Below, one piece after another: positions 8,442 through 52,304 of a DNA stretch of 56,227 bases. Each line of letters begins with the position of its first letter. Within the stretch, counting starts at the first letter, position 1. A model generated the notes under the pieces. The model was not told the origin of the DNA. It did not search any database and saw only the letters and a list, made by a program, of their open reading frames with translations. A program made the translations under genes and the position numbers. The stretch comes from a virus, in the IMG/VR virus record IMGVR_UViG_3300005826_000271, positions 1 to 56,227 of that record. The stretch is one strand, 5' to 3'.

Positions 8442-8803
8442 TGTATAGTTTAGATTTTTTGGAGAAGATGAAGCATTTGCTTCTTAAAGAAAAGAGTGAA
8501 TTATTATCAAGAGCGGTTAGTCAGGATTCATCGGTGGATACTGACGGAGACGAATTTGATGAGATTCAGGGTAATCAATTAAAGGAGATGCAGAACCAAT
8601 TATGTTATAGAGATAATATGAAGCTTATTATGATTGATAATGCACTTTCTAGACTTGATAACAAAGTATATGGGTTGTGTGAGGATTGTGGAGATTTTAT
8701 CCTTGAAAAAAGACTGATGTTCAATCCATATGTTTCAATCTGTGTTGATTGTGCTGAAGATAGAGAAGCACTTGATAAACAAAGAAAGAGAGAAGGATAT
8801 TGA
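8441..8803 (+). CDS. DksA/TraR-family zinc-finger protein
   Basis: 120 residues. N-terminal coiled-coil helices (FLEKMKHLLLKEKSELLSR), then YGLCEDCGDFI and ICVDCAED, the four-cysteine zinc finger of DksA/TraR. The family binds the secondary channel of bacterial RNA polymerase, so this gene may tune host transcription. The acidic coiled-coil-tip DxxDxA motif of DksA is not obvious: VDTDGDEFDEI lies at the equivalent place. Confidence 0.78.
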   Translation: MYSLDFLEKMKHLLLKEKSELLSRAVSQDSSVDTDGDEFDEIQGNQLKEMQNQLCYRDNMKLIMIDNALSRLDNKVYGLCEDCGDFILEKRLMFNPYVSICVDCAEDREALDKQRKREGY

Positions 8804-9387
8804 ACACTATAGTTACAGAAGTTACAGAGCAAGGTGAAGTTGCTATTGATATTTTTCAAAAACTATCAAATGATAGAATTCTATTCATTTGTGGTGAAAT
8901 AGATGATAAAATATCGGCAGATGTTTGCGCAACTTTATTACTAAGAGATGGTGAGGATAAAGATGCTAAGATTACTATATTTATTAATTCAGATGGAGGT
9001 AACATAAGAGATGTATTGGCTATATATGATGTTATGAGAATTATTTCTGCCCCCGTTGAAACTGTGTGCATTGGCGCAGCAATGAATGAGTCTGCAGTTA
9101 TATTGGCTGCTGGAACTCCGGGGTTAAGGTTTGCAACAAAGCATTCTGTAATTTGTGTTGGACAGCTTACAAATAATATGATTTCTTATTCTGATGTTAC
9201 TGATGCTGGAATTTTGCAAAAACAAGTCGCTGAAAATAACAAACAGATGATGACTGCTCTTTCTAAAAGTACCAAAAAGCCTGTTAAACAGGTTATGGCT
9301 GATTTAGATAGAAAAGTTTATCTAACTGCTACTCAAGCTATGAAATATGGGTTAATTGATGGCGTTATCAACAACAAAAAACAATAA
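8800..9387 (+). CDS. ClpP-like protein lacking the catalytic triad
   Basis: 195 residues from TTG 8800 with AGAAGG just upstream. Overall ClpP fold: TIFINSDGGNIRDVLAIYDVM, CIGAAMNESAVILAAGTPG, then YLTATQAMKYGLIDGVI. Aligned with ClpP, the nucleophile Ser in GxAxS is Asn (AAMNESA), the His of MIHQP is Val (VICVGQL), and the Asp before the YLTA strand is Lys. It is therefore probably inactive, comparable to plant/cyanobacterial ClpR. It overlaps the active paralogue downstream, suggesting a mixed barrel. Confidence 0.8.
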   Translation: MNTIVTEVTEQGEVAIDIFQKLSNDRILFICGEIDDKISADVCATLLLRDGEDKDAKITIFINSDGGNIRDVLAIYDVMRIISAPVETVCIGAAMNESAVILAAGTPGLRFATKHSVICVGQLTNNMISYSDVTDAGILQKQVAENNKQMMTALSKSTKKPVKQVMADLDRKVYLTATQAMKYGLIDGVINNKKQ

Positions 9388-9961
9388 AGAACTTTGTAAT
9401 AATGGGTTACCACCTAGAACATCTAAATATGAAAGCTCATATATCTGGTTATCAAAAGATAGAGTAATATTTCTTAAGGAGAATATAACAAAAGAGTTAG
9501 CTGCTGATATGACAGCACTATTATTATACTATGATAGTGCTCCTGTTTCAGATCCAATTAGCATATATATCCACTGTAATGGTGGAGATGCCGATGGTTT
9601 AATTCAAATATATGATGTAATGCAAATGATGCATTCACCTATAAAAACTGTTTGCATTGGTAAAGCTTATTCTGCTGGAGCTGTTATATTAGCAGCTGGA
9701 ACCAAAGGTATGAGGTATGCATTTAAGAATTCTAGAATGATGATACATGGATTGCAAGGATATTTTCATATCCCAGGTCAAGATCAAGTCAATTCATATA
9801 ATTATATGAATTTCATTAAATCACACAATGATGACATCATGAAGATTTTAGCTAGTCATACCGGTAAGCCATTGAAGGATATTAAAGAAGATTGTACAAG
9901 AGATATGTTTCTTACAGCATCACAAGCTGTTAAATATGGTTTAGTTGATAAGATAGTTTAA
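9359..9961 (+). CDS. clpP: ClpP-like protease subunit with intact triad
   Basis: 200 residues from ATG 9359 (a TTG 3 nt earlier is possible), overlapping the preceding gene by 29 nt. Intact ClpP signatures: IYIHCNGGDADG, CIGKAYSAGAVILAAG with the nucleophilic Ser, SRMMIHGLQG with the His, and CTRDMFLTASQAVKYGLVD with the Asp. ClpP forms a tetradecameric barrel that needs a Clp ATPase; none is encoded here, so a host ClpX/ClpA or another phage gene may supply it. It may also act in virion maturation as phage ClpP-like proteases do. Confidence 0.88.
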   Translation: MALSTTKNNKELCNNGLPPRTSKYESSYIWLSKDRVIFLKENITKELAADMTALLLYYDSAPVSDPISIYIHCNGGDADGLIQIYDVMQMMHSPIKTVCIGKAYSAGAVILAAGTKGMRYAFKNSRMMIHGLQGYFHIPGQDQVNSYNYMNFIKSHNDDIMKILASHTGKPLKDIKEDCTRDMFLTASQAVKYGLVDKIV

Positions 9962-16509: not shown

Positions 16510-17307
16510 ATGATTATACGGTCTGTGCGTAAGAAGCTTTCTGAAGATAAAATAAAAACGATTATATCGATGTATAATGATGGATATGGAGCCACAACTT
16601 TATGTAAATTGTTTAATGTTAGTAATGGTACAGTTTATAATTATTTAAGGTGTAATAATATACCTATACGTTCAAGAAAAAGTTTTAGTAGGGATTTTAA
16701 GAAATATAAATTTAATGTTGAGTTTTTTAGAAATAATTCTAATGAATTATCTTATTTTTATGGTTTTTGTTTAGGTGATGGTTCGCTTGGAATTAGTAAT
16801 GGTAATTCCTATTTAAGGATAGGTTTATCTATTAAAGATATTGATTTATTAAAGATGTTTATTAGTTGGATAGATGGTGATCCATCTATGGTTTTTATCA
16901 AAGATAGAGTAGCGACTTTAAGGATAAATAACTCTTTTTTTAAAAATGATTTATCTAAATGGGGTTTGGTTGTAAATAAGACTTATAATCCGGTTGTTCC
17001 TGATGTTCCAGTTAAATATATTAAGACATTTTTAATAGGTTTTATAGATGCAGATGGTTCGGTTAAGTTTGATAATGGTAAATATTCAATTAGTATTGTT
17101 GCTAATGATATTTTGATTGAATGGTTTAAAAATACCATTCGTGATTTGGGGTATGATGGTAATATTCAGTTGTATGATATTAATAATGGAAAAGTATGGA
17201 GTAGATTACACATTTCTAATAAAAATGATGTTATAAAATTAGCTAATTTATTAGAAGTTGATAAGTGCGATTTTTGTTTAGATAGAAAATGGAAAAATTT
17301 GAAATAA
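16510..17307 (+). CDS. LAGLIDADG homing endonuclease
   Basis: 265 residues with an N-terminal helix-turn-helix (TTLCKLFNVSNGTVYNYL), FYGFCLGDGSLG (first LAGLIDADG helix) and FLIGFIDADGSV (second). It follows the topoisomerase stop by 3 nt, in the same frame, separated only by TAG and one codon. No SD is visible upstream of ATG 16510. It is either expressed by reinitiation or, if UAG is decoded, as a fusion with topoisomerase I. Its base composition is even more A/T-rich than the neighbours, as expected of a mobile gene. Confidence 0.85.
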   Translation: MIIRSVRKKLSEDKIKTIISMYNDGYGATTLCKLFNVSNGTVYNYLRCNNIPIRSRKSFSRDFKKYKFNVEFFRNNSNELSYFYGFCLGDGSLGISNGNSYLRIGLSIKDIDLLKMFISWIDGDPSMVFIKDRVATLRINNSFFKNDLSKWGLVVNKTYNPVVPDVPVKYIKTFLIGFIDADGSVKFDNGKYSISIVANDILIEWFKNTIRDLGYDGNIQLYDINNGKVWSRLHISNKNDVIKLANLLEVDKCDFCLDRKWKNLK

Positions 17308-21250: not shown

Positions 21251-21769
21251 ATGTCTAAAAAGACGCTATTATTGAATGCGAGTTACGAAGTTCTCTCATT
21301 TATTCCTGAGAGGAAGGCGTTTAAGTTATTATGTAAAGATAAGGTAGAGATAATCTCTACATGGGATGATATTGTTTTATTTGGTCAAGATAATAGTATA
21401 AGGCATCCATCTATTCTTAGATTAAAAAAGCTTGTTAGAAAGAATTATTTTAATTCTAATTTCAGCAGAAAAGCTCTTGTTAAGAGAGATAAGAGTTGTT
21501 GTCAGTATTGTAGTATAAAGCTTACTGCGTCTGAGATAACTATAGATCATGTTTTACCAAGAGCACAAGGGGGCAAGACGAGCTTTTTGAATTGTGTTGT
21601 ATGCTGTCATGATTGTAATAATAAGAAGGCAGATAGGACCCCTGAAGAAGCGAAGATGGTTTTACTTAAAAAACCAACACACCCGTCATTTGCTGGACAT
21701 TACAATGTAGCTGATCCACAAAAATATTGGCACGATGACTGGGACGATTTTCTTGGGTATACTTACTAA
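21251..21769 (+). CDS. HNH endonuclease
   Basis: 172 residues, starts LLLNASYEVLSFIPERKAFKLL, a widespread HNH subfamily. CQYC...ITIDHVLPRAQGG...CCHDCNNKKADRT forms the HNH zinc core. Its host-like full length and lack of a DNA-binding NUMOD suggest a resident nuclease rather than a homing element. Confidence 0.82.
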   Translation: MSKKTLLLNASYEVLSFIPERKAFKLLCKDKVEIISTWDDIVLFGQDNSIRHPSILRLKKLVRKNYFNSNFSRKALVKRDKSCCQYCSIKLTASEITIDHVLPRAQGGKTSFLNCVVCCHDCNNKKADRTPEEAKMVLLKKPTHPSFAGHYNVADPQKYWHDDWDDFLGYTY

Positions 21770-34432: not shown

Positions 34433-37400
34433 ATGGAGTTTGTTTCATTACACAACCAAACAGATTTTTCTATTTTAGATTCAGTATGTTCTGTAAAAGG
34501 TCTTATTAATAGGGCAAAAGAGCTTGGTCAATCAGCTATTGCTATAACTGAGCATGGTTCTTTTGCTTCAGCTTGGGATGCATGGAAAATATCAAAGGCA
34601 GCTGGAGTTAAGTTAATTACTGGTTGTGAATTGTATTTTCGAAATAATCTCAAAGACGAAAGTGAACGTATGAGTCATATTTTGCTTTTGGCTAAGAATC
34701 AAGTTGGATACCAGAATATATTAACGTTGAATAAACTTGGTTTTGATTCTGATTCGAAAGTTGGTAAACGAGTATATCCAGTTATTGATTGGGATCTATT
34801 AGAGAAACATTCTGATGGAGTAATATGTCTTACAGCCTGTGGTAACGGGATAATTAGCCAGTTGGTTATGAAGAGAGAGTTTGATACTGCAGAAGAAGTC
34901 GCATTGAGATTGAAAAAGATTTTTGGAGATAATTTAGGTCTAGAAGTTCAACCAAACAATATGGTTAGAAATTCAAATGTCTATAATGATGAAATTGATC
35001 AAAAATTCATTAATCACAGACTTATAAATCTTGGCGATAAATTAGGTATAAGAGTTGTTGCTGCTTGCAATACTCATTATCTTAAAAAAGAAGATTACAA
35101 AACACATGATGTGTTTTTGGCTATCGGGTCTAGACAACCTATTTTTTCTTCTTTTAGATTAAGATATCCTGTTCCAGATTTTTATCTAAAGTCAGGTGAT
35201 GAAGTTAAAGCGTTCTTCTCAAGAAATTATGGAGAGAGTTTGGCAGAACAATTATGTCTTAATAGTTTATATTTTGCTTCTTTATGTGAGGAGCCAGAAT
35301 GGATTGATCCAAAATATTCTAATCCAAGTGGTAAAGAATTGCCAATCTTTCCGGTAAAAGACGAACCAGATTATGAAGAGTTTAAATCATGGGTTTATAA
35401 ACAAAAAGGAGAGATTTCTTTACTTGATGAAGATAAACAATATCTAAGATATTCTATTGATAAGCATTTTCCTAATAAGATTAGTAAGATTGCTATGAAC
35501 AAAATTCCAGAATACTTGGAAAGAATTGCAGAAGAACTTGATGTTTTAGAATACCATGGTTTTTCAAGCTACATGCTAATTGTTGCTGATTATATCAATT
35601 GGGCAAAGAAAAATGGTATTGCAGTTGGTGCTGGAAGAGGTTGTTTATCTGCAGAAGGTAAGATATTAACTGAAAATGGTTATAAAAATATAATTGATAT
35701 AAATATTGGTGATAAAGTATATTCTCATACTGGAAAATTAAGGGATGTTATTGATATTCATGCTTATGATTGTAATGAGGATTGTGTATCTATAAAAACA
35801 AGTTATTCATTTGAAAATTTGGTTTTCACAGATGATCATAAATTATTTGCTATAAAGCAAAGATTTACTGATGAATATAAAAAAGCTAATGAAAAAACAA
35901 GAAAAAAAGTTAGAAAATATGATTATCTTGATGATCCATCATGGATTGCTGTGAAGGATTTAAAAATTGGTGATTTTATATTTATGCCTTACGTTAGTAG
36001 GGATATTTGTAAAGAAAATGTTCCAAGTAAATTTAGTATAAAAACATCTTCTACTAGAAATTCAAAATTAGATATAGTTAATACAATTAATGTAGATAGT
36101 GATTTTATATATTTTCTTGGAAGATGGGTGGGTGATGGCTGGATTACAACTCATAATAGTGATAGTTATGATGTTGGGTTAGCTTTTAACTCTAATGATA
36201 TAGAGTCAATAAATTGGTTTGTTGATTATCTTGGTAAATTTTTTAATGTATCTGTACAAAAACATAAAACAAAAAATCTTGTTCAGATTGTTGTTCATAA
36301 CAAGTCATTATTTGATATAATATCAAATATATTCCCGTATTATAATAAAAGTTCATCTACGAAACATCTTCCTGTATTTTTTAGAGATTTAAGTAATGAT
36401 AATCTTAGAGATTTGTTATGTGGGTATATAGATTCTGATGGTAGTGTTGAAAAACAGTATCATAGTAATACATTTAGATATAATATCGATTCTACTAGTA
36501 AACGTCTTATTTTTGAAATAAGAGAGTTATTAAACTTTCTTAAAATTAAATCGTATGTTTCAGTTAGAAAACCATTTATGAAATATGATAAGGTAAAGAA
36601 GTATTCATGTAAAGAGTCTTATAAATTAAGATTTTTGGATAAACCAGATATCGATAGTGAAGGTTATGTTGTTCAGATAAAATCTTTAGATAAAATTAAA
36701 TGTAATAAAGTGTATGATATTACAGTTGAAAAAGATCATTCATATGTTACTCAAAATTTTGCTGCACATAATTCTGTTGGAGGCTCATTAATTGCTTATA
36801 TTCTAGGAATTCATGATGCAGACCCAATCAAATATGGATTAATTTTTGCTAGATTTCATAATAAGGAGAAGTCTAGCTTTCCTGATATTGATACTGACTT
36901 TGCTCCATCAGGAAGGGCATTGGTTCAAGATTATCTTAGGAGAAAGTATGGAGAAGATCATGTTGCTCACGTTTCTAATGTAAATACGATTACTCCAAAA
37001 GTCTATGTCAGAGATATTGCTAGGGCGTGTGAGTTGGGTGGATCTAAAGAGGCAGCAGTACAACTTGGAAATGATGTTGCAGATTGTATTCCTGCAGATA
37101 TTAAATCTATCGATTCTGCACTTGAAAAGGTACCATTGTTTGCTGAATATTGTAAAAAATACCCTGAGTTTATAGAACATAAAGATATTTGCGGTAAATA
37201 TCGTGCTTGGTCAACACATGCTGGAGGCATTATCATTTCACAAAGACCGTTAACAGGTCTTATCCCACTACGTAGAGATAAAGATGGATCATTAGCTATT
37301 GAGTATGATAAGGAAAAGGCAGAAGAAAATGGCTTAGTAAAGATGGATACACTTGGTTTATCTACTCTTGATACAATAAGTAAGACATTAGATCTTATTA

Positions 37401-38275
37401 AAAAGTTAGGAAAAGAAGTTCCAAAAGAAATGTATGACTATGATAATTACGATAAAGACACTTATGATTTGATTTCAAATGGTGATACATTTAAGGTATT
37501 CCAACTTGGAACTAGTGGCGGCACTATTGATTTGTGTAAAAATGTTAAACCAGTAGATATTAATGATATCGCTAATATTAATGCTTTAGCTAGACCTTCT
37601 GCAAGAGATATGAGAGACGATTTTATTAAGACGAAGAATGGCGAAAGGGAGATGACATTATTGCATCCTTCTTTAGAGAGAGGTTTCGGTCAGACATATG
37701 GGTTTGGTTTATATGAAGAATGTTTGATGTATCTAGCGCAGGATGTTGCTGGTTGGACACTTCATGGTGCTGATAGGCTTCGTAAGTTAACAAAAGCTAA
37801 AGGAAAGTATCCAGAAAAAGCAAAGGCGTGGAGAAAAGAGTTCCTTGATGGAGGAAAGAATAATAATATTGATCCGTCAATTGTTAAGAGAATTTGGGAT
37901 GAAGTAGTTGAAAAATTCCAAGGTTATGGTTTCAATAAAAGTTTGTCAGTTTTTGATTTGATTGATATATATTCTTCAGATGGCACATATTTGTGTACCA
38001 AAGAGATTGGAGCAGTTCTACCGGGAGATCATGTTAAATCGCGCGATGAAAAAACGAAACAAGATATTTTTGTACAAGTATTAAATAATCATGATCATGG
38101 AGTATTGCCATTAGTAGAAGTAGAGCTTACAACTGGAGAGAAAATAAGATGTACAATGAATCACAAGTTTCGAGTAGAGGAGAGTGGGGAGATGTTACCG
38201 CTGCATCAGATCCTAAAGGAAGAATTGACTATTATTGTAGATATTGCGGAGAAAAATTCAAAAGCAGAAAACTAG
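34433..38275 (+). CDS. dnaE: DNA polymerase III alpha (DnaE), N-terminal part with intein and split-intein N half
   Basis: 1280 residues. PHP domain (FVSLHNQTDFSILD, ITEHGSFASAW), palm with GAGRG interrupted by an intein at residues 404-780, then SVGGSLIAYI, the catalytic FPDIDTDF (about 816), and GWTLHGADRLRKL. At residue 1170 the polymerase stops at YGFNK and the N half of a split intein begins (SLSVFDLID...). The frame ends at TAG 38273-38275 with TAA two codons on. The extein is completed by the gene at 39212; the two exteins total about 1178 residues, a normal DnaE length. Confidence 0.92.
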   Translation: MEFVSLHNQTDFSILDSVCSVKGLINRAKELGQSAIAITEHGSFASAWDAWKISKAAGVKLITGCELYFRNNLKDESERMSHILLLAKNQVGYQNILTLNKLGFDSDSKVGKRVYPVIDWDLLEKHSDGVICLTACGNGIISQLVMKREFDTAEEVALRLKKIFGDNLGLEVQPNNMVRNSNVYNDEIDQKFINHRLINLGDKLGIRVVAACNTHYLKKEDYKTHDVFLAIGSRQPIFSSFRLRYPVPDFYLKSGDEVKAFFSRNYGESLAEQLCLNSLYFASLCEEPEWIDPKYSNPSGKELPIFPVKDEPDYEEFKSWVYKQKGEISLLDEDKQYLRYSIDKHFPNKISKIAMNKIPEYLERIAEELDVLEYHGFSSYMLIVADYINWAKKNGIAVGAGRGCLSAEGKILTENGYKNIIDINIGDKVYSHTGKLRDVIDIHAYDCNEDCVSIKTSYSFENLVFTDDHKLFAIKQRFTDEYKKANEKTRKKVRKYDYLDDPSWIAVKDLKIGDFIFMPYVSRDICKENVPSKFSIKTSSTRNSKLDIVNTINVDSDFIYFLGRWVGDGWITTHNSDSYDVGLAFNSNDIESINWFVDYLGKFFNVSVQKHKTKNLVQIVVHNKSLFDIISNIFPYYNKSSSTKHLPVFFRDLSNDNLRDLLCGYIDSDGSVEKQYHSNTFRYNIDSTSKRLIFEIRELLNFLKIKSYVSVRKPFMKYDKVKKYSCKESYKLRFLDKPDIDSEGYVVQIKSLDKIKCNKVYDITVEKDHSYVTQNFAAHNSVGGSLIAYILGIHDADPIKYGLIFARFHNKEKSSFPDIDTDFAPSGRALVQDYLRRKYGEDHVAHVSNVNTITPKVYVRDIARACELGGSKEAAVQLGNDVADCIPADIKSIDSALEKVPLFAEYCKKYPEFIEHKDICGKYRAWSTHAGGIIISQRPLTGLIPLRRDKDGSLAIEYDKEKAEENGLVKMDTLGLSTLDTISKTLDLIKKLGKEVPKEMYDYDNYDKDTYDLISNGDTFKVFQLGTSGGTIDLCKNVKPVDINDIANINALARPSARDMRDDFIKTKNGEREMTLLHPSLERGFGQTYGFGLYEECLMYLAQDVAGWTLHGADRLRKLTKAKGKYPEKAKAWRKEFLDGGKNNNIDPSIVKRIWDEVVEKFQGYGFNKSLSVFDLIDIYSSDGTYLCTKEIGAVLPGDHVKSRDEKTKQDIFVQVLNNHDHGVLPLVEVELTTGEKIRCTMNHKFRVEESGEMLPLHQILKEELTIIVDIAEKNSKAEN
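35642..36772 (+). mobile_element. LAGLIDADG intein in DnaE
   Basis: 377-residue in-frame intein. It starts at Cys404 (CLSAEGKILTENG, block A), block B VFTDDHKLFA, LAGLIDADG helices FLGRWVGDGWI and LLCGYIDSDGSV, block F VYDITVEKDHSYV, and ends HN before Ser. It interrupts the polymerase GRG-S active-site motif, a well-known conserved insertion target in DnaE. The splice residues and both endonuclease motifs look intact, so it is probably active. Confidence 0.93.
37940..38275 (+). mobile_element. Split intein, N-terminal half
   Basis: 111 residues after extein ...GYGFNK. Ser at position 1, block A SLSVFDLIDIYSSDG, TKEIGAVLPGDHVKSRD, and block B LTTGEKIRCTMNHKFRV with TxxH. It stops 34 residues after block B, at TAG. 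The matching C half is at 39212-39322. The layout (N half, separate endonuclease gene, C half) is that of phage fractured genes with split inteins. Confidence 0.88.
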
Positions 38276-39225
38276 AAAGGGTAATCAGCCATCAACTACT
38301 TTGTAAAAAAGAATTGGAAAATAAAATAGAAGGAATTGATTATATTAAGTGTGAGCTTTGTAATTATCATGGTAAAAGCTTAAAAACACATTTAACAAAA
38401 GTTCATAAAAGTGTAGAGTCATTGGAATATGAAAAACAATATGGAAAATTAATCTGTGAAGTGTCTTCAAGGGCGTATGCTGACGGAGTGAGATCACATG
38501 AAAGTTGGGTTGCTGTAGCTCGCAGAGAAGGAAAAGATTTGTCGGAGTATTGGAATGATATATCACGGGGCGTCATAAATGCTATCAGGAATAATCCTGA
38601 AGAAATACAAAGGCGTTCGAAGCATATGACTGAATTGAATGATAAACAACAGTCAGATCCAAAATTTCAAAAAATAGTAAGTGATACTGCAAGAAAAACT
38701 TCTGTCAGACCAGAGATACTAGAAGCTAGATCAAAGAAACTTGCGCAATGGAGAAAAGATAATCCAGATGATTTTTATGAGAAGTGCATAAAAAAGATGA
38801 TTGCAACTTTTCAAAGCAAGCCCGAGAAAAAATTATTTGAGTTTGTAAATAGTATTGATGGGTTTTCTTTTAAAAGAAACCAATTTATTCACTCTGAGAT
38901 TATATCTACAAAATCTAAAAAGAAACAAATTGATATGGGTGACAAAAAGAACAGGTTTTATATAGAGTTTGATGGAATTTTACATTTTGAGCCAAAACGT
39001 GGTTATGATTTGTTGAAGATTATACAAAAAAAAGATGGAGAAATTGAGCAGCATATATCTAATCATAATTGGACTCTTATACGAGTATCATATGATCAAT
39101 ATATAGATAAAAACAAAATAGAAAAATCATATTTTAAGCAAGAGTGTTTAGATAGAATTATTGAGATTTTGAATAATAAAACTCCAGGTATTTATAAAAT
39201 AGGTGAGGCGTATGGGAAACATTAA
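38149..39225 (+). CDS. Homing endonuclease of the Vsr-like/EDxHD type between the dnaE halves
   Basis: 358 residues in a different frame from both dnaE parts. ATG 38149 has GGAGAG 8 nt upstream, within the split-intein N half; a 126-nt overlap. Zinc-finger-like YYCRYCGEKF...HQLLC near the N-terminus and YIKCELCNYHGKSLKTHLTKVH after it (C2H2 type). C-terminal nuclease: RFYIEFDGILHFE, then GEIEQHISNHNWTLIRVSYDQY, which resembles the Vsr-like endonucleases found in fractured genes. Probably drives movement of the split-intein locus. Confidence 0.82.
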   Translation: MYNESQVSSRGEWGDVTAASDPKGRIDYYCRYCGEKFKSRKLERVISHQLLCKKELENKIEGIDYIKCELCNYHGKSLKTHLTKVHKSVESLEYEKQYGKLICEVSSRAYADGVRSHESWVAVARREGKDLSEYWNDISRGVINAIRNNPEEIQRRSKHMTELNDKQQSDPKFQKIVSDTARKTSVRPEILEARSKKLAQWRKDNPDDFYEKCIKKMIATFQSKPEKKLFEFVNSIDGFSFKRNQFIHSEIISTKSKKKQIDMGDKKNRFYIEFDGILHFEPKRGYDLLKIIQKKDGEIEQHISNHNWTLIRVSYDQYIDKNKIEKSYFKQECLDRIIEILNNKTPGIYKIGEAYGKH

Positions 39226-39322
39226 ATCAATTAAATTTGTCGGTCACGGAATGACTTGTGATTTGGAAGTAGACCATCCAGACCATCAATTTTATATGTT
39301 TAATGGTATGTTAACTTCTAAT
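39212..39322 (+). mobile_element. Split intein, C-terminal half
   Basis: 37 residues from ATG 39212 (SD AGGTGAGG): MGNIKSIKFVGHG, block F CDLEVDHPDHQFYM, block G FNGMLTSN, ending Asn before Ser+1. Length and sequence style closely match fast-splicing split intein C halves of the gp41-1 class. Joins DnaE FNK to SHATLYS. Confidence 0.88.
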
Positions 39323-40483
39323 TCTCACGCAACTCTATATTCTATGATTGGATATCAGACTGCTTATCTTAAAGCTCATTTTCCTATAGAGTTTTTGCAA
39401 GCTAATCTTATGGATGAAGTTAATTCTAATGCTCAAGATTCTAAGAATAATATTGAGAAGATAAAGAAAGAATTGCGTCAGCGTGGCGTCAGAATTATGC
39501 CTCCAGATATTAACAGATCTGACTTGACATATAAGTTGGTTGGAGGTAATAGGTTAGTAACTGGATTGGATGCATTGAAATTTGTAGGTGAGGAAGCTAT
39601 AAAAGATATTGTTTCAAAAAGACCATTTAAGAGCTTTTTTGATTTTATGGTAAGAGTAGACTCAAAGAGGGTTAGAGCCAATAATATACAAGCTCTTGCG
39701 GCATGCGGGGCTTTTGATGATTTTGGTATACCTAGGAAGCTTCTATTTTTGTATTGTTCTGATTATAGAAAAAAGCTTCAGGTATGGAAAAAGAAACACA
39801 ACCCTGATTTTGAAGAATTTAAGTATCCTTGGCCAAGTGAAGGTGAATGGAGTGAGCAAGAAATTTATGCTTTAGAAACTTATTACCTTGGAGAGGGTTT
39901 TGTTTGTAAACCATATAAAGCTTATGGGTCATTTTTTGATGGAGAACATCATGATATTTCACATGTAAAGAAAGCAAAAGATAGAGATACAATTCCATAT
40001 TTCAAAGGCATAGTTATTGATTTCTTTGAATTTAAAGTTAAAAAAGAAACAAGTAAATATTATGGACAGGCTATGGCTAAGGTAACAATTGAAGATAAAT
40101 ATGGAGATCAGATTTCATGCACGGTATTTCCAGATAGATGGAAGATTGTTCATGAGAGACTAAAGCAAGTTAAGAAAACGTTAGAGTTTGCTCCAGGGGT
40201 AGCCTTATATTTTAGAGCAAATGTAAATTACTATAATGATGAGGTTGGTCTAATATTAGATCAGTTATATAATGCTTGTCCTCCTCCATCCGTGCCAGCA
40301 GATTTAAAAGCTAAAAAAGTTGTTTTAAAAAGAACAAAAATAAATAGTGATGAAAAGGGGTTCGGAAAACCAAAGGGAATAAACGCTATCGCCGAATTAC
40401 TTAATCGTATAAACGAAAAAATTGAAGATAATTTGTACGATCAAGGTTTAATAGATTTAGATGACGAATACGAAGAGTTTTGA
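39212..40483 (+). CDS. dnaE: DnaE, C-terminal part (with split-intein C half)
   Basis: 423 residues; the first 37 are intein. The extein starts SHATLYSMIGYQTAYLKAHFP, directly continuing bacterial DnaE. It includes a helix-hairpin-helix region (ALKFVGEEAIKDIVS) and an OB-fold (YFKGIVIDFFEFKVKKE). A GTG 9 nt upstream is an alternative start, but the ATG is better spaced from the SD. Trans-splicing with the 34433 product is required for a whole polymerase. Confidence 0.9.
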   Translation: MGNIKSIKFVGHGMTCDLEVDHPDHQFYMFNGMLTSNSHATLYSMIGYQTAYLKAHFPIEFLQANLMDEVNSNAQDSKNNIEKIKKELRQRGVRIMPPDINRSDLTYKLVGGNRLVTGLDALKFVGEEAIKDIVSKRPFKSFFDFMVRVDSKRVRANNIQALAACGAFDDFGIPRKLLFLYCSDYRKKLQVWKKKHNPDFEEFKYPWPSEGEWSEQEIYALETYYLGEGFVCKPYKAYGSFFDGEHHDISHVKKAKDRDTIPYFKGIVIDFFEFKVKKETSKYYGQAMAKVTIEDKYGDQISCTVFPDRWKIVHERLKQVKKTLEFAPGVALYFRANVNYYNDEVGLILDQLYNACPPPSVPADLKAKKVVLKRTKINSDEKGFGKPKGINAIAELLNRINEKIEDNLYDQGLIDLDDEYEEF

Positions 40484-43173: not shown

Positions 43174-43680
43174 ATGACTGAAGTAAAGTTAAGGGATCTT
43201 ATCGGAGATAAGTTAGAAGAAGATTTCTTGGATTTTGATATGACAGAGATCCATGAAGTATTAAGTTCATTACAGACTGAAGATGCGACTGATTTATCTC
43301 ATGCTGAAATGTTACAACAAAAGGCTTTAAGAGGGGCTGATATATTAAGTGAGTTTTTAAGTCGGCTAGTTAAAACGGTAGCATATTTGGAGTCGCAAGT
43401 AAATAGAGTTAAGAATAAAGTAGCTCTAGAATATAAAGCTGCAGATGGTAGAACTACGACAGAGATGAAAAAATGGGCAGGTGAGTCTTCAGAAGAAGTA
43501 GAAGAATTGCAGATAAAACTTGCAAGGGCAAAGGGCGGAAAAGTTATGCTTGACAAAAAGTATGATATACTAATAAGAAGTCATCATCATTATAAAGATA
43601 TAGCTAATGGTTTAAGAAAAACTATTTTGGGTTATGGTCCTATTCAAAATAAAGAGAAGATTCCTGAAGGATATGAATGA
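43174..43680 (+). CDS. Helical protein upstream of recA; possible recombination mediator
   Basis: 168 residues. Acidic N-terminus, long helices (LSEFLSRLVKTVAYLESQVNRVKNKV, VEELQIKLARAKGGKVMLDKKYD) and a HHHYKDIANGLRKTILGY end. Position before recA and general shape suggest a UvsY-like mediator, but no diagnostic motif. Its last 25 residues are duplicated at the end of the HNH gene that follows. Confidence 0.65.
   Translation: MTEVKLRDLIGDKLEEDFLDFDMTEIHEVLSSLQTEDATDLSHAEMLQQKALRGADILSEFLSRLVKTVAYLESQVNRVKNKVALEYKAADGRTTTEMKKWAGESSEEVEELQIKLARAKGGKVMLDKKYDILIRSHHHYKDIANGLRKTILGYGPIQNKEKIPEGYE
43603..43680 (+). repeat. Gene-tail duplication, copy A
   Basis: The 25 codons plus stop at the end of the 43174 gene. 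Copy B is 44388-44465, at the end of the HNH ORF. 17 of 25 residues are identical (GLRKTILGY and PEGYE in both), but most shared codons differ at the third base. Confidence 0.85.
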
Positions 43681-44465
43681 TTAGAGTTTGTAAAAAATGT
43701 GGAGATAAAAAGGACATAAATCTTTTTGTTAAGAAAAAACAAAAAGATGGTTCATATTTTATTTTTTATACATGCATAGAGTGTAATAAAAAATATTATC
43801 GTGAGTATAATAAAAAATATTATCTTAATCATAGTAGTGAACTTATAAGTAAATCTAAAGAATGGTATTCTATGAATTTAGATAAAAAGAAAGAGTATGA
43901 TAAAAATTATCAAGAAGAAAATAAGAAAAAGAAAGCAGATTATGATAAAAAATATAGAGAAAAGAATAGAGATAATATTAATAAAAGGTTAGCTGTTTAT
44001 AAAAAATCTAGAAGACTTAAAGATCCTCAATATAGGCTTAGAAAAAGCATATCATATAGTGTTTGGTATTATATGAATAAAAATGGCTCAAGTAAAGGTA
44101 ATAATTCTGTTGTAAGATTTTTACCTTACACAATAGGTGAATTGAAAAAACATTTAGAAGGATTATTTGAAAATTGGATGAATTGGGATAATTATGGTGC
44201 GTATCATATTTCTGAATGGGATGATGATGACCAATCGACTTGGACTTGGCAAATTGATCATATTATTCCGCAAAGTAAATTACCATATACATCTATGGAT
44301 GATGAGAATTTTAAAAAATGTTGGAATTTGTGTAATTTGCGTCCTTTATCATCTAAAGAAAATCTTTTAAAGGCAAACAAAGAAATTGCGTCAGGCTTAA
44401 GGAAAACGATCCTCGGATATAGTTCAGGCATGGCAACAGAGAAGGTTCCAGAGGGATATGAGTGA
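43677..44465 (+). CDS. HNH homing endonuclease carrying a duplicated neighbour tail
   Basis: 262 residues, ATGA overlap with the upstream gene. N-terminal zinc motif VCKKCGDKK...YTCIEC, Lys/Tyr-rich repeats (EYNKKYY, YDKKYREKN), then HNH region NWMNWDNYGAY...WTWQIDHIIPQS...KKCWNLCNLRPLSSKENLL. Its last 25 codons copy the end of the upstream gene. It has a truncated relative at 30491-30760. Probable mobile insertion at the 3' end of the 43174 gene. Confidence 0.85.
   Translation: MIRVCKKCGDKKDINLFVKKKQKDGSYFIFYTCIECNKKYYREYNKKYYLNHSSELISKSKEWYSMNLDKKKEYDKNYQEENKKKKADYDKKYREKNRDNINKRLAVYKKSRRLKDPQYRLRKSISYSVWYYMNKNGSSKGNNSVVRFLPYTIGELKKHLEGLFENWMNWDNYGAYHISEWDDDDQSTWTWQIDHIIPQSKLPYTSMDDENFKKCWNLCNLRPLSSKENLLKANKEIASGLRKTILGYSSGMATEKVPEGYE
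44388..44465 (+). repeat. Gene-tail duplication, copy B
   Basis: 25 codons plus stop fused to the HNH ORF; see copy A at 43603-43680. The DNA is diverged mostly by synonymous changes: in GLRKTILGY, most codons differ while the peptide is unchanged. Either copy may be the ancestral gene end. Confidence 0.85.
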
Positions 44466-44507: not shown

Positions 44508-46724
44508 ATGGCAAAAAAGACTTTAGATGCCTTTTTTAAAAGTTTTGCTGACTCAGAAGAGCAGTTAGATTATAGAATGGCGCATGAAATTATTGGAAAA
44601 CCAATGGAAGTTATTTCGACAGGATCGTTGGCTCTGGATAATGCTTTGTCTTCTGGTGGTTTGCCAAAAGGAAGATTGATACAGTATTATGGACCATCTG
44701 GGTGTCATGCTAAAGGTCAAAAACTTTTGTTATCTAATGGTACATTTAAAAATGTAGAAGATGTTATTGTTGGAGATTCTTTAATGGGTGATGATAGTAC
44801 TCCGCGAAAAGTATTAAAATTAATTCGTGGGTATGGTAAAATGTACAAGATTACTCCTAAAAAAGGTAAGTCATTTGTTGTAAATGAAGATCATATTTTA
44901 ACATTGATTAGAAATAATGATATGATTGATAATTGGAATGCAAATTCAAAATTTGAATTGATTGATGTTTCAGTTAAAGAATGGCTAAAGTGGAAGAAGT
45001 ATAAAAAAGTGGCGCACAAATTAAAGAGACAAAAGGTAGATACGTTTTGGTCTTGTTATGATTTGAATTATCCTGTAGTAAATGAACTTCTAATAGATCC
45101 TTATATATTAGGTATATTGTTAGGGGATGGATCAATAAATAGATCTGTTGAATTAACTACTGCTGATCCGGAAATATTAGAAGCATTTTCTGAATTTACA
45201 TTAAAATCAAAACTTAGATTAGTTGAAGCTTCTACATCTGGAAAATCTAAAACATATAGAGCATCGGGAGAGAGATTTAAAGAGAATCATATTTTTTCTA
45301 TACTTAAAAATATGAATATAAATATTACTAGTGGTCATAAGTTCATACCTTATGAGTATAAAACATGCTCTATTGAAAATAGATTGAAAGTTCTTGCAGG
45401 TCTTATTGATACTGATGGTAGTGTTAATTCTAATTGTATTGATTTTATATCTAAATCTAAACAATTATCTGAGGATGTCGTTTATATTTCAAAAAGTGTT
45501 GGTTTGGCAGCTTATATAAAAGAAACTGTTAAATCAGCGTATAATGGTCATAGCGATATTTATTATAGGGTTAGTATTAGTGGTGACACATCTATTATAC
45601 CTACTAAAATACCAAGAAAAAAATGTGATAAAAGAAAACAAGTAAAAAATGTATTACATACTGGATTTTCTGTAGAATATATTGGTGATGATAATTTTTA
45701 TGGATTTACTTTGAGTGATAATGGTAGGTATCTATTAGATGATTTTACTGTTACTCATAATTCTGGCAAAACGATGATGGCAATGATAGCTATTGCCGAG
45801 GCTCAGAAGTTAGACCCAACATCTCAGCAAATGTTTATAGATTCAGAGCAAACTTTTGATGCCAATTGGGCAAGAAAATTAGGAGCAGACCCATCTAGAA
45901 TTATTCATATATATGGTGATTTAGCTGTAAATGGCAGAAAATGTTTCGAAATGCTTCTTGGTGTTCCAAAAGAGGACTCAAAGCATATCCTCAAGGGTAA
46001 ATCCAAAGAAGGTTTTCTTGATAATATAGTAAGTGGTGATTATAATGTTAATATGATAGTGTTAGATTCACTAGGTTCAATTATTCCTCCAGGTGAGGAT
46101 ACTTCAGCTGTTGGTAAGATGAATATGTCTCTATTAGCAAGGTTTTTAACTACTACTTTTAGGAAGTTATCATTAGAGGTCAATAAAGCGAAAATTCCAT
46201 TTATTATTATCAACCATAAGAAAGACTCTATGGATATGTATGGAAGTGACCATACTTTCTCTGGTGGAAATACATATGCCCATTTTCTTAGTGCAAACGT
46301 GTATTTTGAAGCAATTCAGAGAAAAGACGCTATGATTGTTGATGAAAAGGATAATAAGATTGGTCATGCAGTAAGAGCTACGATAGAAAAATCGAAGTTT
46401 GGACCTTGGCCAAGGAAGTGTGAATTCAAAGTTGATTTTGGTCTGGGTGTTATAGATAGATATGAAGAAGTAGCTAATTTGGCTATTGAATATGATATTG
46501 TTTTAAAAACCTCATCAGTCAGTCACGAATACAACGGTCAAAAGTGGGTAGGTTTTCCAAAATTCTGTAAAGCAGTTGAAGAGGATCATGGTTTTATGAG
46601 AGAACTAGAGCAAAAAATTAATGAAGCAAGGCTTGAAAAATTAAGGAAAACAAGAGAAGATCAGGACAAGAGAACTGCTGAAGTATTATCTGATGTAACT
46701 GATGTTGAAGAAAGTAAGGAATAA
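44508..46724 (+). CDS. recA: RecA-type recombinase with intein
   Basis: 738 residues; 385 without the intein. ISTGSLALDNALSSGGLPKGRLIQYYGPSG leads to the intein; then SGKTMMAMIAIAEAQ restores Walker A GPSGSGKT. MIVLDSLGSIIP is Walker B; FIIINHKKDSMD and a C-terminal acidic coil follow. Phage-owned strand-exchange protein, next to a possible mediator and SSB. Confidence 0.93.
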   Translation: MAKKTLDAFFKSFADSEEQLDYRMAHEIIGKPMEVISTGSLALDNALSSGGLPKGRLIQYYGPSGCHAKGQKLLLSNGTFKNVEDVIVGDSLMGDDSTPRKVLKLIRGYGKMYKITPKKGKSFVVNEDHILTLIRNNDMIDNWNANSKFELIDVSVKEWLKWKKYKKVAHKLKRQKVDTFWSCYDLNYPVVNELLIDPYILGILLGDGSINRSVELTTADPEILEAFSEFTLKSKLRLVEASTSGKSKTYRASGERFKENHIFSILKNMNINITSGHKFIPYEYKTCSIENRLKVLAGLIDTDGSVNSNCIDFISKSKQLSEDVVYISKSVGLAAYIKETVKSAYNGHSDIYYRVSISGDTSIIPTKIPRKKCDKRKQVKNVLHTGFSVEYIGDDNFYGFTLSDNGRYLLDDFTVTHNSGKTMMAMIAIAEAQKLDPTSQQMFIDSEQTFDANWARKLGADPSRIIHIYGDLAVNGRKCFEMLLGVPKEDSKHILKGKSKEGFLDNIVSGDYNVNMIVLDSLGSIIPPGEDTSAVGKMNMSLLARFLTTTFRKLSLEVNKAKIPFIIINHKKDSMDMYGSDHTFSGGNTYAHFLSANVYFEAIQRKDAMIVDEKDNKIGHAVRATIEKSKFGPWPRKCEFKVDFGLGVIDRYEEVANLAIEYDIVLKTSSVSHEYNGQKWVGFPKFCKAVEEDHGFMRELEQKINEARLEKLRKTREDQDKRTAEVLSDVTDVEESKE
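44703..45761 (+). mobile_element. LAGLIDADG intein in RecA Walker A
   Basis: 353 residues (66-418 of the precursor), starting Cys (CHAKGQKLLLSNG), block B FVVNEDHILTL, LAGLIDADG motifs ILGILLGDGSI and VLAGLIDTDGSV, block F NFYGFTLSDNGRYLL, ending THN before Ser. It splits GPSG from SGKT, so the ATPase cannot work before splicing. Confidence 0.93.
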
Positions 46725-51278: not shown

Positions 51279-51320
51279 AAAACTATCTTACTAGTGATAT
51301 ATACTGTTTTGGAGGTTATT

Positions 51321-52304
51321 ATGACAGAGGGAACAAAGTATCACTATTTGTATAGAATTACTAACAAAATTAATGGAAAAATCTACATAGGGCAAACAAT
51401 TGATTATATTAGGCGTTGGTATGAGCATAAGAGGGCTGCTAGGAGTGGAAAATCAGGTCAGATAATATCTTATGCTATAGCTAAACATGGGGAAGATAAT
51501 TTTAAATTTGAGATAATCGCTACCTGTAGAGGTTATGATGATGTTAATTTTATAGAAGAAGAATTAATTAAACAATATGATTGTTTAGTTTCTGGTGGAA
51601 AGGGTTATAATATTTCACTTGGTGGAGAAACTGCACCTAAAACAGAAGAATGGAAGAAGAAAGTATCACAATCTCTTATGGGGCATTCTGTATCTGATGA
51701 AACAAAAGAAAAATTATCTAAAGCTAATATTGGTAAAATAATTTCTGATGAAACAAGAGAAAAAATTTCATTAGCTATGATTGGAAGAGATGTATCTAAA
51801 GATACAAGAAAAAAGTTATCGGAAATAAATAAAGGTAATACTAATTGTTTAGGAAAACAAAACGCTTTAGGTTATTGTCATACTGATAAGGCTAAAGAGA
51901 AAATTGGTGCGGCATTTCGTGGTAAAACAAATTTGTATTGTAAAGGTAAATCTTGGAAAATTGTTAATGGAAAACGAAAGTGGCAACTATATTATAGTGA
52001 AGAAGAGAAGAAAAAAGAGTGTAGTGTATGTCATGATATAAAGGAATTTGATAATTTTTATAGTCAGAAAAAGGCAAGATACGGATTATCATCATCTTGT
52101 AGAGATTGTTTAAATTTAGCAAAAAAGAAAAAAAGAGGAACTTTAGAAAAAACATTATTATTAGATGACAATAAGAAGAAGTGTTCTAAATGTGGAGAAG
52201 TTAAAGATTTTGAATTATTTAATAAGCGAACAGATGGGGAATTAGCGAGTTGGTGTAAAGGTTGCTATAACGAATATAGGAGAGAAAAAAGATTAACTGA
52301 TTAA
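51321..52304 (+). CDS. GIY-YIG homing endonuclease with NUMOD3 repeats
   Basis: 327 residues from ATG 51321 (SD GGAGG). YLYRITNKINGKIYIGQT and RRWYEHKRAA carry the GIY-YIG core; EEELIKQYDC provides the Glu region. Three NUMOD3-type repeats follow (SDETKEKLSKANIG and two like it). Two Cys-rich modules near the end (CSVCHDIKEF...SCRDC and CSKCGEVKDF...CKGC) are DNA-binding zinc motifs. Free-standing mobile gene. Confidence 0.9.
   Translation: MTEGTKYHYLYRITNKINGKIYIGQTIDYIRRWYEHKRAARSGKSGQIISYAIAKHGEDNFKFEIIATCRGYDDVNFIEEELIKQYDCLVSGGKGYNISLGGETAPKTEEWKKKVSQSLMGHSVSDETKEKLSKANIGKIISDETREKISLAMIGRDVSKDTRKKLSEINKGNTNCLGKQNALGYCHTDKAKEKIGAAFRGKTNLYCKGKSWKIVNGKRKWQLYYSEEEKKKECSVCHDIKEFDNFYSQKKARYGLSSSCRDCLNLAKKKKRGTLEKTLLLDDNKKKCSKCGEVKDFELFNKRTDGELASWCKGCYNEYRREKRLTD

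Follow-up and report, generated by a model that had tools for sequence, protein, structure and literature searches.

The window, which is the whole stretch of DNA analyzed here, is a 56,227-base IMG/VR viral record in which a gene for a small helical protein and a neighboring open reading frame (ORF) for an HNH endonuclease end alike. The first of these, the target gene, is intact; the nuclease gene adjoins it, a displaced second copy of its end lies beyond the nuclease gene, and a uvsX-like recombinase gene follows. The features of the locus are listed below.

43174-43680, + strand: target gene, probably UvsY-like, an ORF of 168 amino acids for a helical protein.
43594-43680, + strand: putative rewritten replacement tail of the target gene (codon 141 to stop), recognized by synonymous-site differences from HNH-free relatives; left boundary approximate.
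43677-44378, + strand: predicted HNH endonuclease proper, with PHROG matches and the family invariant columns kept.
44379-44465, + strand: apparent displaced original tail, in frame with the HNH ORF, its best match being the original tails of HNH-free relatives.
44406-44423, + strand: motif ACGATCCTCGGATATAGT, whose synonymous sites are conserved among HNH-free relatives; the displaced tail holds it unbroken.
44508-46724, + strand: uvsX/recA-like recombinase gene, with Pfam matches to RecA, Hom_end_hint, and LAGLIDADG_3 and a UvsX-like PHROG match.
About 44706-45758, + strand: intein inside uvsX, marked by Pfam Hom_end_hint and LAGLIDADG_3.

The target gene ends in KDIANGLRKTILGYGPIQNKEKIPEGYE and the HNH ORF (43677-44465, 262 amino acids), whose start overlaps the stop codon of the target gene (ATGA), ends in KEIASGLRKTILGYSSGMATEKVPEGYE, each directly before its stop. 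The two share 18 identical residues in their last 26 codons, a recount that confirms the likeness noted in an earlier, sequence-only reading of this DNA (17 of 25), and the local protein score of the tail pair is 97, compared with a maximum of 39 in 5,000 shuffles. A translated search of the window placed the second tail copy at 44376-44462 (E 2e-6). That reading had also held that most shared codons differ at the third base, and 11 of the 18 codons for identical residues do differ between the two tails, nearly all at that position, so the pair is not an assembly duplicate.

The genes around the locus, as assigned by eye, include a polymerase III alpha subunit with inteins, a topoisomerase, an FtsK-like ATPase, ClpP-like proteins, a trigger factor, UvsX, and a DnaJ-like protein, a set consistent with a phage of very large genome, and contigs of 100-480 kb carry many of the relatives of the locus. 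Nuclease-like ORFs were also seen by eye at 2016-2600 (HNH-like), 16510-17307 (LAGLIDADG-like), 21251-21769 (HNH-like), and 51294-52304 (GIY-YIG-like). The dnaE-like gene (34433-40483) is broken into two ORFs at an apparent second, split intein, with the N-half at the end of 34433-38275 and the C-half at the start of 39203-40483. Between the halves is an ORF (38149-39225) with the look of a Vsr-type homing nuclease, and a LAGLIDADG-like intein is also present in ORF 34433-38275. We take this broken gene with its split intein to resemble published 'fractured gene' arrangements. A general gene-end scan of the window revealed no other nuclease-associated end duplications. Two consecutive ClpP-like genes at 8800-9961 have similar C-termini (gene-end scan score 100), and this pair was rejected as a displaced end in favor of a whole-gene duplication.

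The ORF downstream of the target gene is identified from its sequence as a predicted HNH endonuclease of the phage HNH/endonuclease VII-like family. It matches PHROG entries for endonuclease VII, endonuclease, and HNH (E 5e-8 to 1e-7), is laid out as an N-terminal zinc ribbon, helical repeats, and an HNH core (DH...NLRP...N), and keeps every invariant column of both family alignments, 23 of 23 in the core alignment and 30 of 30 in the full-length one. No Pfam HNH model was above cut-off for this ORF, and the AlphaFold2 model of the protein is poor (pTM 0.35).

The target protein is probably a UvsY-like recombination mediator, as suggested by structure prediction and gene order. Its AlphaFold2 model (pLDDT 88) shows an extended helical hairpin followed by a disordered C-terminus, and the replaced segment corresponds in this model to the end of the last helix plus the disordered tail. 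The top 13 Foldseek matches are all T4 UvsY (probability 0.90-1.00), with weak E-values of 0.08-0.5, and UvsY is also the top match by VIA-align, with a Z of 10.5 over 124 residues that is only just above other helical proteins. Searching by sequence found neither UvsY nor any PDB protein as a significant match to the target gene, sequence profiles gave no match, and relatives of the gene were found neither in GTDB genome contigs nor in INPHARED phages. In HNH-free relatives, uvsX comes immediately after the target gene, and this adjoining uvsX, together with the structure matches, makes a UvsY-like protein the most likely identity. The disputed gene pair in the window would then be the recombination machinery itself (probable uvsY and uvsX).

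Relatives of the target gene were taken from viral contigs and comprise, with the window, 51 distinct sequences. HNH-free relatives (L001, L002, L003, L005, L007, and more) have a single tail directly before uvsX, which starts ~10-45 nt past that tail in most of those examined. The DNA of this tail agrees with the HNH-fused tail, with ACGATCCTCGGATAT exact, and not with the gene's own tail; of the 49 relatives compared over 12 codons, 36 are nearer the HNH-fused copy, nine are nearer the gene's copy, and four are ties. The displaced tail scores 38 against the original tails of HNH-free relatives (shuffled maximum 19, 0/100), and the ATA codon for I143 is found among the 51 sequences only in the window and L041 (the same as L004), with ATT in 44. 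Since the tail DNA of HNH-free relatives resembles the HNH-fused copy, these comparisons identify the tail on the HNH ORF as the displaced original and that of the 43174 gene as the replacement. Comparing the tails of HNH-free relatives was the test proposed in the sequence-only reading, and its reasoning, which put the old tail on the HNH ORF, stands; its title, which put the recoded copy there, does not, as that copy is the gene's own tail.

Within the tails of HNH-free relatives, the DNA at the synonymous sites of ACGATCCTCGGATATAGT is unusually fixed among many divergent phages, and the DNA AAA GAT ATT near codons 139-144 is likewise unusually fixed. The exact 16-mer was found in 22 DNA stretches of viral contigs, 20 of them on contigs also carrying the target gene, and the window has a single copy, the one within the HNH-fused tail. 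Within the ingroup, absence of the motif from the gene is associated with a long stretch of DNA between the gene and uvsX (7/8 vs. 2/30, Fisher P 2e-5, uncorrected for phylogeny). An RNA structure at the tail motif was rejected on the basis of RNAalifold, as was a recurrent phage promoter, this being the sole site in the window. The displaced tail retains the whole motif, so a cut target confined wholly to it is unlikely. Its conservation points to another DNA-level role, possibly as a promoter or other cis element for uvsX.

A gene-end pair scan of the collected loci identified one further 3′ case, of the same polarity and in another phage, whose HNH-free relatives are closer than those of the window. 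There, on contig 3300035696_000016 (L010/L111), dnaE is followed by a gene of this HNH family with the ending QKVLTTDIVDKKEDVNDIDGMISDIEDDLFEEGLIDLDDEENDN. Compared with HNH-free sisters, the HNH-fused dnaE tail has 90.7% DNA identity to L011 and 84.3% to L085, and dnaE's own tail has 77% and 75%, respectively. The dnaE gene of L111 is 77-90% identical to that of its sister L131 to ~2,650 nt and 62-78% identical in the last ~600-900 nt; the HNH-free L011 and L085 have ~84% mutual dnaE identity over the last 690 nt. This drop in identity is the footprint that would be expected of a one-sided 3′ replacement arriving together with the HNH gene, and the conversion tract at dnaE supports a new tail that was already rewritten on arrival. 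We infer the same for the window, where the target genes, at ~68% amino acid identity to relatives, are too divergent for a conversion tract to be seen. HNH relatives were also observed after dnaE in L126 (274-816) and just before the uvsY-like gene in L005 (2133-2678), both without a displaced end, so these gene borders appear to be repeated insertion sites.

The HNH family was surveyed through the best 80 of 453 relatives, and 92 family HNH ORFs were scanned, 62 with a testable upstream neighbor and 72 with a testable downstream neighbor. Displaced 3′ ends were found at two of the 62 (scores of 120 and 97, with a null 99th percentile of 36 and a null maximum of 52) and displaced 5′ ends at five of the 72 (scores 49-90; null 99th percentile 38), which means that most insertions of the family lack a displaced end (85 of the 92 HNH genes in the scan). 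The 5′ null contained two high values, 71 and 102, presumably from pairs of homologous loci, and the next was 41. In the five 5′ cases (L127, L117, L174, L164, and L207), a head of the gene that follows the HNH ORF is located ahead of that ORF or fused to it; the displaced head of L164 is decayed, and in L207 the HNH ORF itself starts MNKPTYKK and the downstream gene starts with a synonymous copy. A follow-up search added L213 as a sixth displaced-head locus (score 66). In L117/L213, either head may be the original. The displaced head of L127 is clearly the original by sequence, with the DLTGG..L signature of HNH-free relatives present on it and absent from the gene's own head, and the evidence for L174 is suggestive of the same. 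Glycosyltransferase relatives without HNH (L211, L212, L214, and L216) have no displaced head; two others, L215 and L217 (on the contigs of L161 and L159), have an HNH gene upstream and still no displaced head.

One relative without a recognizable nuclease gene, L004, has both tails: a rewritten gene tail and then a 218-nt interval that closes, just before uvsX, with a decaying original tail, which scores 30 against a null maximum of 17 (0/100). In a 1,124-residue concatenated tree, L004 groups with L028, L029, and L032, all with a single original tail (100/100), and is nested with L028 and L029 at support of 90.9/97; the window's own place in the concatenated tree is weak (74.8/68). A search of the interval for an HNH remnant gave no signal, with 219 of 500 shuffles as good for DNA and 63 of 200 for protein. 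As L004 nests inside an original-tail clade, it is read as a later stage, in which the nuclease gene may have been lost after the tail was replaced. The sequence-only reading had named HNH-free relatives with both tails as evidence against itself, and L004 is one such relative. Candidate decayed tails in the HNH-free L030, L033, and L038 were rejected, L030 being marginal (1/100) and the other two non-significant. In L034, the slot separating the uvsY-like gene from uvsX holds a different ORF (3485-4240), which by eye has a Vsr/PD-(D/E)XK look and whose reading frame continues, with no stop codon, into that of uvsX; a profile search with it gave no significant match.

We consider it likely that the locus holds a free-standing HNH homing element that carries a replacement 3′ end of its target gene as cargo. 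The HNH nuclease would cut the original uvsY-like allele near codons 139-144, where the displaced fragment begins, and repair from the element-bearing genome would copy in the rewritten tail and the HNH gene together, so that the original tail of the recipient would end up beyond the HNH gene. In that position the displaced tail could act as the right homology arm, with its stop codon ending the HNH ORF, and the target gene would remain functional without a match to the cut site. By analogy with known homing systems, the nuclease would cleave the original allele and the element would be mobile; self-immunity of the rewritten allele is plausible. The earlier proposal that the HNH insertion brought in a synonymous tail and left the old one fused to its own ORF is supported by the tails of relatives, by dnaE, and by the gene starts. 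For the broader view, that such elements replace the 3′ or 5′ end of many phage target genes with a resistant copy and keep the displaced end, often ORF-fused, as a homology arm, the balance of probability is only slightly favorable.

A possible though doubtful alternative is that gene conversion between two phage lineages produced the duplicated tail as a mere side effect, with the HNH gene an ordinary free-standing homing gene whose in-frame fusion is accidental and has no role in mobility. Free-standing phage homing genes often co-convert their flanks, as in HEG islands, where intergenic nuclease genes lie beside essential genes, and this habit counts for such a by-product, as does the large share of family HNH genes without a displaced end. 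An accident of this kind fits poorly with recurrence across several unrelated genes, at their starts as well as their ends, and with in-frame fusion seen twice for a displaced tail (the window and L010) and once for a displaced head (L207).

It is improbable that duplication came first, in the form of a nuclease-free partial tandem duplication at the end of the gene, with the HNH gene landing between the copies later; the uvsX-side copy would have been held by the DNA-level function of the motif while the upstream copy drifted. The two tails of L004, the strong DNA-level conservation of the motif and its best preservation in both displaced tails, and the ordinary AT-rich codons of the rewritten tails all agree with this order of events, and synonymous differences could accrue after plain duplication. 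It does not account for displaced ends flanking the same HNH family at dnaE, the L127 gene, a glycosyltransferase gene, and others; furthermore, HNH-free relatives of the two examined 5′-target genes have no displaced ends, and divergence at dnaE reaches ~600-900 nt into the gene, as for co-conversion and not a short duplication. Chance or motif-driven convergence of unrelated C-termini, or assembly error, has almost no probability and is refuted by the shuffle score, the codon differences, and the same arrangement on other contigs.

If end replacement by an HNH homing element is correct, a homing strategy of yeast nuclear and fungal mitochondrial DNA would extend to bacteriophages, with gene starts added to its range. 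It would also explain why chimeric ends and short remnants of genes occur beside phage nuclease genes, and it predicts both the allele that is cut and the approximate cut site, where the displaced fragment has its inner edge. No phage precedent for end-replacing homing was found in a search of the open-access literature.

The arrangement is like that of the WHO elements of the yeasts Torulaspora and Lachancea, in which a nuclease gene lies beside an uninterrupted target with a divergent 3′ end and the old end lies beyond the nuclease (Coughlan et al. 2020, PMC7282813). The WHO nuclease cuts FBA1, and repair copies in a resistant 3′ end together with the nuclease gene; the former 3′ end is pushed aside and provides homology, old fragments decay, and cleavage has been demonstrated for WHO6 (PMC7282813). 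WHO proteins are LAGLIDADG/intein-derived, zinc-finger-bearing, HO-related, and encoded on nuclear yeast chromosomes, with one main target (FBA1) and tandem clusters (PMC7282813), whereas the phage family is HNH, has many target genes and no clusters seen, occurs at both gene ends with the displaced end sometimes fused in frame, and is predicted from its sequence to cut. As an HNH protein, the phage nuclease is a functional analogue and not a member of the WHO family.

A similar likeness is found in the mobile endonuclease ORFs (mORFs) of Glomus and Allomyces mitochondria, where a C-terminus and an endonuclease ORF are inserted, the native C-terminus is displaced downstream, its DNA is closer to relatives, and the differences are mostly synonymous (Beaudet et al. 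2013, PMC3630166). The mORFs described there are mitochondrial, encode LAGLIDADG or GIY-YIG enzymes, and concern 3′ ends, whereas the phage family is HNH and affects both ends. Free-standing phage homing endonucleases of the Seg/Mob type share intergenic nuclease genes beside essential genes and flank co-conversion, and the available part of their description mentions no displaced gene end (PMC10448857), a feature present in the phage HNH element.

The element also resembles engineered home-and-rescue drives in that a rewritten copy preserves the target gene. Such a design, HomeR, reportedly uses a recoded gene end. HomeR homes, targets an essential gene, and rescues it, and it is an engineered, Cas9-based system (PMC7968924), whereas the phage element would belong to a natural HNH family.
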